Shown one piece after another: positions 60,626-64,000 of a DNA stretch of 64,000 bases; position 1 is the stretch's first letter, and every line of letters begins with the position of its first letter. The DNA comes from Candidatus Anaeroferrophillus wilburensis (GTDB lineage: Bacteria; Desulfobacterota; Anaeroferrophillalia; Anaeroferrophillales; Anaeroferrophillaceae): contig JAFGSY010000035.1 of NCBI GenBank assembly GCA_016934315.1, positions 1 to 64,000 of the forward strand, given 5' to 3'. Under the pieces are notes generated by a model. That model was not told the origin of the DNA. It saw only the letters and a program-made list of their open reading frames with translations, and did no database searches. A program made the position numbers and the translations under genes.

Positions 60626-60669
60626 AGGTGATACGCCAAAATTGAACGTTGTGTTCAAGGTGGTGGCAT

Positions 60670-60705
60670 AAAAAAAGCCGCACGTAAAACGTGCGGCTTT
60701 TTTTA
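60670..60705. terminator. Bidirectional terminator between HTH gene and acsE
   Basis: AAAAAAAGCCGCACGT, loop AAA, ACGTGCGGCTTTTTTT: a perfect stem of over 15 bp with A- and T-tracts on both sides. Confidence 0.93.
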
Positions 60706-60730
60706 TGCTCTTGTTGGGCAGCCTGGCTGT

Positions 60731-61657
60731 TTATTTGTACCAGTTGGGATTATATTTGTCCACCAGGTCTTCGATCCACGAGTGAGAATAGAGAATATCT
60801 CCGTTGCAGCACTTGATACTGCGGTAATAGACTTGGAGCTCAACACCCAAGGATTTCTCATCAACATCCTCACCTTCCATCAATTTCCTGGTCAGTTCAT
60901 CTACTGCCGGAATCTGACCGTGGCACAAAGCAATCATCTCTGCGTCATAGGCATCAACGATGGAGGAGTAGATGCCCAGATATTTATGCATTGCCTGATA
61001 ACCGCGATTGAGGAAATGGCGCAGTTCATTAGGCGTCCCGTTGGAGATGTTGGAGAGGCCGCAGGTTGATTTGGCACCGGGGGCGAAATCGGGGATCAAG
61101 GGCAGGAATTCAAGGAAAGAGGCCACCTGGCCCGGATCAACACAGACCGGCAGGACGATGGGGTCAATCCACATTTTTTCCGCCGGAATGTCATATTCCA
61201 ATGCCTTATTGTAAATTTCCGCTGCACACATGCCGCGTTCATTGACATCCCGGGGAATGCCTTCTTCGCTGAGAGTCAGGGCGACAAAATCACAGCCGTA
61301 CTCTTTGACGATGGGCATCCGGGTTTCAAGGCTGTCAGTCTGGGCGGTGATGGAGTTAACAATGCAGGTCTGCGGGCTTCTGGAAGCTTTCAGGCCGGCA
61401 ATGATGGCCTGATGATTGGTGCTATCCAGGGCCAGAGGAAGTTTGGATACTTCTTCAACGGTTTTTACCAGCCAGGCCATCATCTCATCGCCGGCTTTGC
61501 GTGCCGGCCCGAGGTTCAGATCCTGATAATCTGCTCCGGCCTCTTCCTGCTCAATGGCCATTTTCTGCACCGGTTTGGGATCACGTTCCTTGATCGCCGG
61601 CCCGATGGTTTTTGACATGATATTGATGCTTTCAGCAAGTGCTAATACGTTTCCCAT
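60731..61657 (-). CDS. acsE: Methyl-THF:corrinoid iron-sulfur protein methyltransferase
   Basis: A 308-residue TIM-barrel pterin methyltransferase. It moves the methyl group from methyl-tetrahydrofolate to the Co(I) of the corrinoid iron-sulfur protein (CFeSP) in the Wood-Ljungdahl pathway. GADYQDLNLGPARKAG, LALDSTNHQAIIAGL and GLSNISNGTPNELR are the pterin- and methyl-transfer segments of the AcsE/MetH-like family. GGAGG precedes the ATG. A terminator hairpin separates it from acsC, so it may have its own promoter or rely on readthrough. Confidence 0.95.
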   Translation of the reverse strand: MGNVLALAESINIMSKTIGPAIKERDPKPVQKMAIEQEEAGADYQDLNLGPARKAGDEMMAWLVKTVEEVSKLPLALDSTNHQAIIAGLKASRSPQTCIVNSITAQTDSLETRMPIVKEYGCDFVALTLSEEGIPRDVNERGMCAAEIYNKALEYDIPAEKMWIDPIVLPVCVDPGQVASFLEFLPLIPDFAPGAKSTCGLSNISNGTPNELRHFLNRGYQAMHKYLGIYSSIVDAYDAEMIALCHGQIPAVDELTRKLMEGEDVDEKSLGVELQVYYRSIKCCNGDILYSHSWIEDLVDKYNPNWYK

Positions 61658-61765: not shown

Positions 61766-63115
61766 CTAGACAGTCATGTCTTTAAGGAATTTCGGCAGAT
61801 CTGAAGCCTCGCGGGTGCCGATAATAACCTCCCAGTCGGAGCCGAGTTCTTCCTGGAATTCACCGGAGAGCTGGGCCACATAACCGGGAATGATAATTTT
61901 GTTGTGGCTGATCTTGTCACGAATACCCGATTTCACCGCAAAGGGCGCCATGGCGTCAGCAACGAATTTGCCGGCTGACCAGGCGGTCAGTACGGACATC
62001 CCTTCAACATCCATAATCAGCAACCAAGTGGGTACCCGGCTGGCCTCAATTTCAGCTGAGACGATGAAGTAGGTAAGGGCAAAGTTGGTGGTGATAATAA
62101 CCGGTGAATCAGGACCGGGTTTATTGATCTCATAGATCCCTTCGTCCATGATCATCGGCCGCTGCGGATCGGTGTAGATGTTGAGGCGTTGCACCAAGAG
62201 AGGCAGCATCCGTTCCTTGTCCACATCGCTCATGACCACGATGCCGCCGTACTTGGCGATCGCGATAGCGGCATACAGGGCTTCCTTGTAGGGATCATCG
62301 GTCATGGCGCAGACGACGTTAATGGTCGGATAGCCGAGATCTTTATTTTTGGCCTTCAGTGCTGAGCGGCGAACCTGGTGGTTGTCGACGAACATCTGCT
62401 TGAGGGTGGTGGCACCGGTATCGAGAACGATATCTTTGACTCCGGCATCGACGATTGTCTTGGTGAAGTTGGAAACCGCTTCAAGGGAATCGCCTTTGGC
62501 AACCACGGACGCTTCGTTTTCTATGGCAATGGCGGCAACCTTGTCAGCGTTGTCAGCGGTAGCGGCATAGAGCAGTGCTTTTCTGCCTTTGGCAGCCTTG
62601 GCACCGGCTTCCAGGGCAGCAAGATCATCACTGCAGAGAATCAGGCCTTTTTCCGTGGCGCCCATGGCTTTGGTAACCAGGGCGGCAAACTTGCCGGCAT
62701 CACCGCTGGTGTTCTGAATGGCCAGCAGGTTCGGGGCCAGGGTCAGGCCAACGCGTTCGAAAGAAACGGTATTGAGGTTGTTGATTTTAGCATCCACATC
62801 ACCATCAGCCATGGTATCGGTAACCAGGACGGCAATCGCAGTGGGATTGATGAAGGTTTTTTCATGCCGGTACATGACCATCTCTTCACCAACTTTAATG
62901 GCATTGTCGCCGGTACCGATAACCACGCCGCGGATTGGCGGTGCAGAGGCCTCGCTCAGCTGAGCTTTGGCTTCATCGGAAACATAAGGGCATTTGTCCA
63001 GTTCGGCTTTACCCCCTGCCAATTGCATGGCAAAAGCCAAACAGGTAGGGCTGCCGCACTCTTTACAATTGGTTTTGGGGAGCAATTTGAAAATTTGGAT
63101 TCCAGTGAGTCCCAT
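61766..63115 (-). CDS. acsC: CODH/ACS corrinoid iron-sulfur protein, large (gamma) subunit
   Basis: A 449-residue AcsC/CdhE. The N-terminal [4Fe-4S] motif is CKECGSPTCLAFAMQLAGGK-type with spacing C-x2-C-x4-C-x16-C (residues 17, 20, 25, 42), an exact match. A TIM-barrel domain and a C-terminal corrinoid-binding domain follow. It accepts a methyl group from AcsE and delivers it to AcsB. A GGAAGGAG site precedes the ATG. It is preceded by a cobalamin riboswitch. The small subunit gene acsD is not adjacent here. Confidence 0.95.
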   Translation of the reverse strand: MGLTGIQIFKLLPKTNCKECGSPTCLAFAMQLAGGKAELDKCPYVSDEAKAQLSEASAPPIRGVVIGTGDNAIKVGEEMVMYRHEKTFINPTAIAVLVTDTMADGDVDAKINNLNTVSFERVGLTLAPNLLAIQNTSGDAGKFAALVTKAMGATEKGLILCSDDLAALEAGAKAAKGRKALLYAATADNADKVAAIAIENEASVVAKGDSLEAVSNFTKTIVDAGVKDIVLDTGATTLKQMFVDNHQVRRSALKAKNKDLGYPTINVVCAMTDDPYKEALYAAIAIAKYGGIVVMSDVDKERMLPLLVQRLNIYTDPQRPMIMDEGIYEINKPGPDSPVIITTNFALTYFIVSAEIEASRVPTWLLIMDVEGMSVLTAWSAGKFVADAMAPFAVKSGIRDKISHNKIIIPGYVAQLSGEFQEELGSDWEVIIGTREASDLPKFLKDMTV

Positions 63116-63196
63116 TCACTTATCTCCTTCCGTAATATAGTTGGTTTGCTGCCCCCCACTCTCTTGAAAACCGCGAAGAGATATGAGGAAAATTGA

Positions 63197-63345
63197 CTAC
63201 CTGGTCAGGTCTTCTGGCTGACGGATCGTCCTACTTGCCGTTCCTTCCCAAACATTAATTGCTCAGTGGTTTGTCACGGTTTTCGTCCCCGATCACAGCG
63301 GCGGGTCCGCTCCCGACTTGCACGGGATTCCCTTAGGCCAGGTAG
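63197..63345 (-). ncRNA. Cobalamin (B12) riboswitch upstream of acsC
   Basis: On the minus strand the P1 stem is CTACCTGG (63345-63338) with CCAGGTAG (63204-63197). The core reads AGGGAATCCCGTGCAAGTC, GCGGACCCGCCGCTGTGAT, CGGGGACGAA and CCACTG, and ends with the conserved AGCCAGAAGACCTG. It begins 25 bases after the acsB stop and ends 81 bases before the acsC start. A small TCTCTT/AAGAGA hairpin and the ribosome site follow; no intrinsic terminator is seen, so control may be translational. The switch would respond to adenosyl- or other cobalamin. Confidence 0.93.
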
Positions 63346-63370
63346 TATATCTTCTCCAGTGTGCTTCAGG

Positions 63371-64000
63371 TTACATCAACGGATCCATTTCCAGGGCCGG
63401 GTGACCAACTTCCGTCATGAAGGCGATCACTTCTTCCTCGGTAGTGGCGTTTTCTTCAGTGGCGATCATATCGTAGAGGTTTGGTACCCCAATCTCTTCA
63501 CCACGTTTTTCAATAACATCTTTCATTTGCTCTTTCAGCGCTTTCGGCAGCCATGCCAGGCGCTTAATGCCACCTTCGGCGGAGACAAACTTTTTGCTGC
63601 CGATATAGAATTTGGAGATGCCGACAAAACCGGGAGTCTGCATACCACCGCCGACGCTGCCGGCCAGGGTTGAGAAGGCCATGCCGCAGGGGGTATCACC
63701 GGTGTAGTCGCGATCGACCACCATGATCGCATTGGCAGCGAACAGGCAGGCACCGATGGCTTCAAAGCAGCCGCAGGAGGTCATGGGGTCTTCCATGATG
63801 GAGTAGGCGGCAAAGCTTTCAAAGGCGTTGCCGGAGGCCGGTACGACAAATTCGTCTACCCCTTTCCATTTGCCGAGGCGTTCATCAACAACATCGCCCT
63901 TTTCGATCGGCTGGTTAGGCCCGTGGGGGTTGATTTCATAGGAGGCCCGGCAGTCAAGCCAGTTGTAGGCGCCGCACAGCCCCGGCCGTTCCGGCGTTAC
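63371..64000 (-). CDS. acsB: Acetyl-CoA synthase (CODH/ACS beta), 3' part, cut by window edge
   Basis: The last 209 residues of AcsB, which makes acetyl-CoA from CO, methyl-CFeSP and CoA at its A-cluster. VTPERPGLCGAYNWLD begins the fragment and MEDPMTSCGCFEAI carries the Cys-Gly-Cys distal-nickel ligands. The spacing between the GLC cysteine and the CGC first cysteine is 67 residues, equal to Cys528-Cys595 of the Moorella enzyme, so the A-cluster is intact. The N-terminal part lies beyond the window. Confidence 0.94.
   Translation of the reverse strand, partial: VTPERPGLCGAYNWLDCRASYEINPHGPNQPIEKGDVVDERLGKWKGVDEFVVPASGNAFESFAAYSIMEDPMTSCGCFEAIGACLFAANAIMVVDRDYTGDTPCGMAFSTLAGSVGGGMQTPGFVGISKFYIGSKKFVSAEGGIKRLAWLPKALKEQMKDVIEKRGEEIGVPNLYDMIATEENATTEEEVIAFMTEVGHPALEMDPLM

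Follow-up and report, generated by a model that had tools for sequence, protein, structure and literature searches.

An order-wide cobalamin riboswitch between acsB and acsC, and a tentative case for translational activation by corrinoid

Introduction

The usual view of corrinoid riboswitches is of feedback brakes that act on the uptake and synthesis of B12. What, then, is a cobalamin riboswitch doing directly in front of acsC, the gene for the large subunit of the corrinoid iron-sulfur protein (CFeSP), which itself uses a corrinoid? The locus lies in Candidatus Anaeroferrophillus wilburensis (Desulfobacterota, order Anaeroferrophillales), and the window is the whole stretch of 64,000 nt that was analysed, positions 1 to 64,000 of contig JAFGSY010000035.1 (assembly GCA_016934315.1). 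The original prediction had placed a complete cobalamin aptamer here, had found repression by abundant cobalamin counter-intuitive for a protein that needs it, and had doubted that an acsC B12 switch had been described.

That doubt stands. No cobalamin riboswitch of acsC or of CODH/ACS was found in the open-access papers searched, with subscription papers and bioRxiv outside the scope of the search. Acetogen transcriptome papers place cobalamin riboswitches at genes for B12 synthesis and transport. When 86 corrinoid riboswitch reporters were assayed, 38 were functional, all by repression (Kennedy et al. 2022, PMC9600662). The first activating corrinoid riboswitch, that of Alkalihalobacillus halodurans cobT, was reported in 2023 and uses P13 as an antiterminator (Procknow et al. 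2023, PMC10653944); no other natural activating one appeared in the open-access papers searched.

Results and Discussion

A full-length aptamer divides the acs genes

The features of the locus, in window coordinates, are as follows.

60666 to 60708, no strand set: strong intrinsic terminator-like hairpin after acsE, 20 pairs, T-runs on both strands (listed on the plus strand; the minus-strand reading comes from the sequence itself)
60731 to 61657, minus strand: acsE-like gene for a methyltetrahydrofolate:corrinoid methyltransferase, downstream of acsC
61766 to 63115, minus strand: acsC, CFeSP large (gamma) subunit, 449 amino acids, the proposed regulated gene
63122 to 63129, minus strand: acsC Shine-Dalgarno, AAGGAGAU, outside P13 and complementary to the P13 5' strand
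63152 to 63190, minus strand: P13 hairpin of the expression platform, UUCCUCAUAUCUCUU / AAGAGAGUGGGGGG, with no U-run after the hairpin
63166 to 63175, minus strand: loop L13, CGCGGUUUUC
63186 to 63357, minus strand: cobalamin riboswitch aptamer (RF00174), full length, by covariance model
63196 to 63204, minus strand: 3' strand of helix P1, CCAGGUAGU, pairing with 63338 to 63346
63206 to 63219, minus strand: B12 box of the aptamer core, AGCCAGAAGACCUG, from sequence, invariant in the window's family
63303 to 63308, minus strand: loop L5 (GGACCC), half of a predicted L5-L13 kissing interaction
63338 to 63346, minus strand: 5' strand of helix P1, ACUACCUGG, forming 9 uninterrupted pairs with 63196 to 63204
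63371 to 64000, minus strand: 3' part of acsB, upstream of the riboswitch; the gene continues to contig position 65587

A cmscan of the window returned a single cobalamin riboswitch, which fills the gap between the acsB stop (63371) and the acsC start (63115). It scored 90.3 bits (E 5e-21) against an RF00174 gathering score of 31.5 bits, and the match spans model positions 1 to 189 without truncation. The claim of a complete aptamer is thereby confirmed through the covariance-model search proposed for it, and the span first given for it, 63197 to 63345, runs almost exactly from one P1 strand to the other. The element and its flanking genes all lie on the minus strand; the original prediction gave no strand. 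Like other members of RF00174, the element has the core, the B12 box, a P6 extension and P1, together with a plausible L5-L13 interaction and a downstream P13. We tentatively take it for a corrinoid riboswitch of the large, P6-extended type, one that would bind a corrinoid. It belongs to a known aptamer class in a new gene setting: the usual RF00174 riboswitch precedes a gene for uptake, synthesis or a B12-independent isozyme, whereas this one precedes the gene for a corrinoid-using protein.

Family matches bear out the predicted placement within an acs operon, directly before the corrinoid-protein gene. The acsC product matches NF003195 at 589 bits and carries the PF03599 and PF04060 domains, and contig positions 63371 to 65587 encode AcsB (NF040764/PRK09529, PF19436). 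The acsE-like gene has PRK07535 as its best match, below that model's strict cut-off; its position downstream of acsC is kept in those relatives whose loci reach so far, and it is presumably co-regulated with acsC. Upstream of acsB, beyond the window edge, lie acsD and then genes for CooC, an AcsV-like activator and Fhs, names that we assign from translated sequences rather than from a family search. Within this one run of genes the riboswitch separates acsD-acsB from acsC-acsE, so that the two CFeSP subunits fall on opposite sides. The proposed uncoupling of AcsC from AcsB can be refined accordingly, since acsD sits with acsB and acsE with acsC. The source genome holds a single copy of acsC; the sole other match is a short ferredoxin-like stretch.

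In this order acsB and acsD are immediate neighbours (L063:3371-6588, contig 63371-66588). In many relatives outside it the two genes stand about 2 kb apart, which leaves room for the CO dehydrogenase gene acsA.

The riboswitch is conserved across the order

In 14 of the 22 genomes of this order of uncultured Desulfobacterota, one contig covers both the riboswitch region and the acsC start, and the riboswitch precedes acsC in every one of the 14. These genomes fall into two families, their GenBank names include Ca. Anaeroferrophillacea and Ca. Tharpella aukensis, and their AcsC proteins are 81-90% identical to that of the window. Comparison of related acsC leaders, which had been suggested as a check, thus found the aptamer in all testable relatives. 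When 395 Desulfobacterota genomes were scanned for a B12 box followed by 60-90 bases and the acsC start, exactly these 14 matched and none outside the order did; the reversed-pattern control gave zero matches, and the pattern is blind to switches with a different spacing and to those preceding an acsC whose first residues differ. Among 110 loci scanned loosely for the B12 box, false matches were many, and matches were considered only if they had no more than one mismatch. Outside the order, fourteen of the nearest acsC loci gave no Rfam match whatever, and acsB-acsC spacing is about 20-240 bases. The simplest reading is that the ancestor of the order acquired the riboswitch between acsB and acsC.

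The RNA structure is also kept. Over the 14 leaders, P1 pairs 2-8 show several standard pair types (CG, UA and UG at pair 4; CG, GC, GU and UA at pair 6), that is, compensatory changes. P1 and L5-L13 were located by seeking complementarity, so pair counts lean in their favour. In the predicted kissing interaction, an L5 A faces an L13 U in six genomes and an L5 G faces an L13 C in eight, a compensatory difference between the families; four pairs are possible in 13 of 14 (G016 ends in a G-A pair), from few sequences and hand-matched loops. The cobT pairing of L5 GCCCG with L13 UGGC plus one bulged C can likewise be drawn in most sister-family leaders (GGGCCCGC with GUGGCG). P13 is present in all six members of the window's family, and the sequence of P13 and its linker is strongly conserved within each family. 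Judging from these comparisons, the acsC-leader RNA appears to be under selection.

Two relatives carry an insert between acsB and the aptamer. In G007 (leader L041) its ends are imperfect inverted repeats (TAAAATGTTCAG ... CTGGACATTTTA), and G011 (leader L042) has a shorter, similar insert between the acsB stop and the riboswitch. By sequence, both look like a small mobile repeat element.

The expression platform has neither known repressing device

How might such an aptamer act on acsC? None of the 14 acsC leaders has an intrinsic terminator. By contrast, one follows 37 of the 41 other RF00174 riboswitches in the same genomes, each a stable hairpin with a U-run, mostly of -16 to -28 kcal/mol. 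Among the four exceptions, G001 C74:40393 and G006 C91:1017 have the classical OFF layout, in which the Shine-Dalgarno, some 10 nt ahead of the start, adjoins or overlaps the 3' strand of P13. The acsC Shine-Dalgarno, about eight to ten bases from the AUG, instead lies beyond P13 in all 14 leaders, by 17-23 nt in the window's family and 9-12 nt in the sister family. The acsC leaders therefore have neither the terminator after P13 of the repressing transcriptional type nor, in contrast to loci L175 and L188, the Shine-Dalgarno in or adjoining P13 of the repressing translational type (btuB/env8). The platform is of neither known repressing type. Because it lacks the OFF parts of nearly all other B12 switches in these genomes, the acsC switch may turn its gene on. 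We favour post-transcriptional control and lean, tentatively, to ON.

Folding supports activation in the window's leader but not in the sister family

When the window's leader was folded from after the B12 box with the P1 3' strand available, the minimum-energy structure hid the Shine-Dalgarno (unpaired probability about 0.11) by pairing it with the P13 5' strand. With the P1 3' strand left out, as if held in P1, P13 formed and the Shine-Dalgarno was unpaired with a probability of 0.48-0.50. When P13 was forbidden, its 5' strand paired with the Shine-Dalgarno in all six members of the window's family. Mutual exclusion of P13 and the inhibitory structure is thus predicted for the window's leader and, only under constraint, for its five family relatives. 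It is not predicted for the sister family: of seven leaders tested there, a single one paired the P13 5' strand with the Shine-Dalgarno.

Other folds count against activation. For the five relatives in the window's family, folds with P13 come out about 6-9 kcal/mol more stable than those lacking it, and P13 is therefore expected to form there even in the absence of ligand. When the whole window leader was folded without constraint, P1 was kept and the Shine-Dalgarno was still hidden. In G001 a local hairpin closes the Shine-Dalgarno even with P13 formed. The folding predictions support an ON switch in the window's RNA and, weakly, in its family; they do not in the sister family. The original worry about repression is supported in part, in that neither classical OFF device is present and acsC is single; the ON sign is at most a lean, with sister-family folds that do not predict it.

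Three further candidate signals were set aside. Complementarity between the P13 5' strand and the start region was no better than with shuffled start regions (14-45% of shuffles were as good, in a duplex-energy comparison of all leaders except the last two). The window's leader also shows the P1 3' strand paired with acsC codons 3-6, a feature that its relatives do not share. Within acsC, synonymous sites are most constrained at the start (0.96, the mean being 0.67); this was dropped as evidence of RNA pairing because the acsD start is similarly constrained (0.94).

A candidate mechanism and its alternatives

The explanation we prefer, at somewhat less than even confidence, is that the riboswitch sets acsC-acsE output separately from acsD-acsB, post-transcriptionally and in the ON sense. 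Regulation would occur after transcription, without an intrinsic terminator. Binding of a corrinoid coenzyme would close P1 and the L5-L13 kissing loop and so fix the P13 hairpin. With P13 fixed, its 5' strand, which is complementary to the acsC Shine-Dalgarno, would be kept away and the ribosome site left free, and AcsC would be made when its cofactor is at hand. The counter-evidence (stable P13 folds, the sister family, the shuffles and the whole-leader fold) is what holds our confidence in the ON sign to this level. Like A. halodurans cobT, this model is an ON switch in which P13 itself is the anti-inhibitory structure; the cobT switch, however, acts on transcription, with P13 opposing a terminator, is triggered by cobinamide and governs a biosynthesis gene, whereas the acsC leader has no terminator (PMC10653944).

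No match to CbiC or CbiD was found in the source genome (98% complete) and CobS is present, so the organism probably salvages corrinoids, which would make cofactor-gated AcsC synthesis sensible. CbiD occurs in 8 of 11 high-quality genomes of the order but not in the source genome, so both likely corrinoid producers and likely salvagers retain the switch. It is sensible to produce AcsC only if there is coenzyme to fill it, yet such logic alone does not fix the sign: a cobalamin riboswitch also stands upstream of Veillonella parvula mutA, a gene named for a cobalamin-dependent mutase, and, unlike the ON switch proposed here, it represses in a B. subtilis reporter (PMC9600662). As cited in PMC11575231, a Listeria cobalamin riboswitch controls an antisense RNA, and B12-related catabolism is fully expressed only with B12 present. 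The outcome would be alike here, except that the Listeria switch acts via an antisense RNA and the acsC switch would act in cis in the mRNA leader.

The mutA precedent also lends weight to the main alternative, an OFF switch on translation or mRNA stability, to which we give roughly a third of our belief. Here the ligand would fix the aptamer and P13 and thereby lower acsC initiation or expose the acsC-acsE mRNA to cleavage, so that scarce corrinoid would call up more AcsC to capture the little available. Repression is the rule, with few exceptions, among corrinoid riboswitches characterised so far (PMC9600662, PMC10653944), and in G001 a local hairpin hides the Shine-Dalgarno with P13 formed. 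Yet the position of the Shine-Dalgarno outside P13 in 14 of 14 leaders argues the other way, no sequestering hairpin of the P13 state is conserved across these leaders, and repression under replete B12 would starve the cell of its only CFeSP large subunit.

Control by Rho-dependent termination or RNase processing within the intercistronic leader, either OFF or ON and with no direct role for the Shine-Dalgarno, seems unlikely. The missing intrinsic terminator would suit it, as would a sister family without clear anti-Shine-Dalgarno logic and an intercistronic site, where polar effects would part acsC-acsE from acsD-acsB. Regulation of E. coli btuB has a Rho component. However, no sequence feature of the leader points specifically to such control. 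It is more improbable still that the leader is a relic or constitutive, an imported aptamer that no longer switches acsC. The predicted state of P13 and the Shine-Dalgarno is alike in most leaders whatever the ligand state, as a relic would have it; but a relic would decay, and the core, P1, P13, the predicted kissing loop and the spacing are kept in 14 of 14 genomes of two families.

Returning to the ON model, its broadest form, a natural translational corrinoid riboswitch that gates the sole CFeSP large subunit and the methyltransferase by cofactor, from within the acs operon and throughout the order, is one we hold a little more cautiously. Here, across an order, a corrinoid riboswitch precedes the gene for the corrinoid protein of a carbon pathway of ancient origin and lacks both known brake mechanisms. 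If it is activating, cofactor supply would set the output of the Wood-Ljungdahl methyl-transfer arm directly through RNA. A translational activating platform would extend the repertoire of corrinoid riboswitches; to our knowledge it would be the second of them that activates and the first that does so through translation. The 14 acsC leaders are natural variants ready for comparison.

Other cobalamin riboswitches in these genomes

The source genome has two cobalamin riboswitches in all. The second (L064, G000 C14:19039-19247) lies ahead of a gene for a predicted TonB-type receptor; its terminator is strong (-24.9 kcal/mol) and its design a plain OFF one. In G006, tandem cobalamin riboswitches stand before one gene (L188, C91:613-795 and 1017-1206), the first with an intrinsic terminator and the second with a Shine-Dalgarno next to P13, so this gene seems to be under both transcriptional and translational control. 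Two cobalamin riboswitch matches also lie about 1.1 kb apart on G001 C87. In the relative G016, acsE is followed by a second cobalamin riboswitch that has a terminator (L192, G016 C111:10725-10909) and precedes a small ORF and an ORF that resembles, as read from its sequence, a CbiK-type cobalt chelatase.
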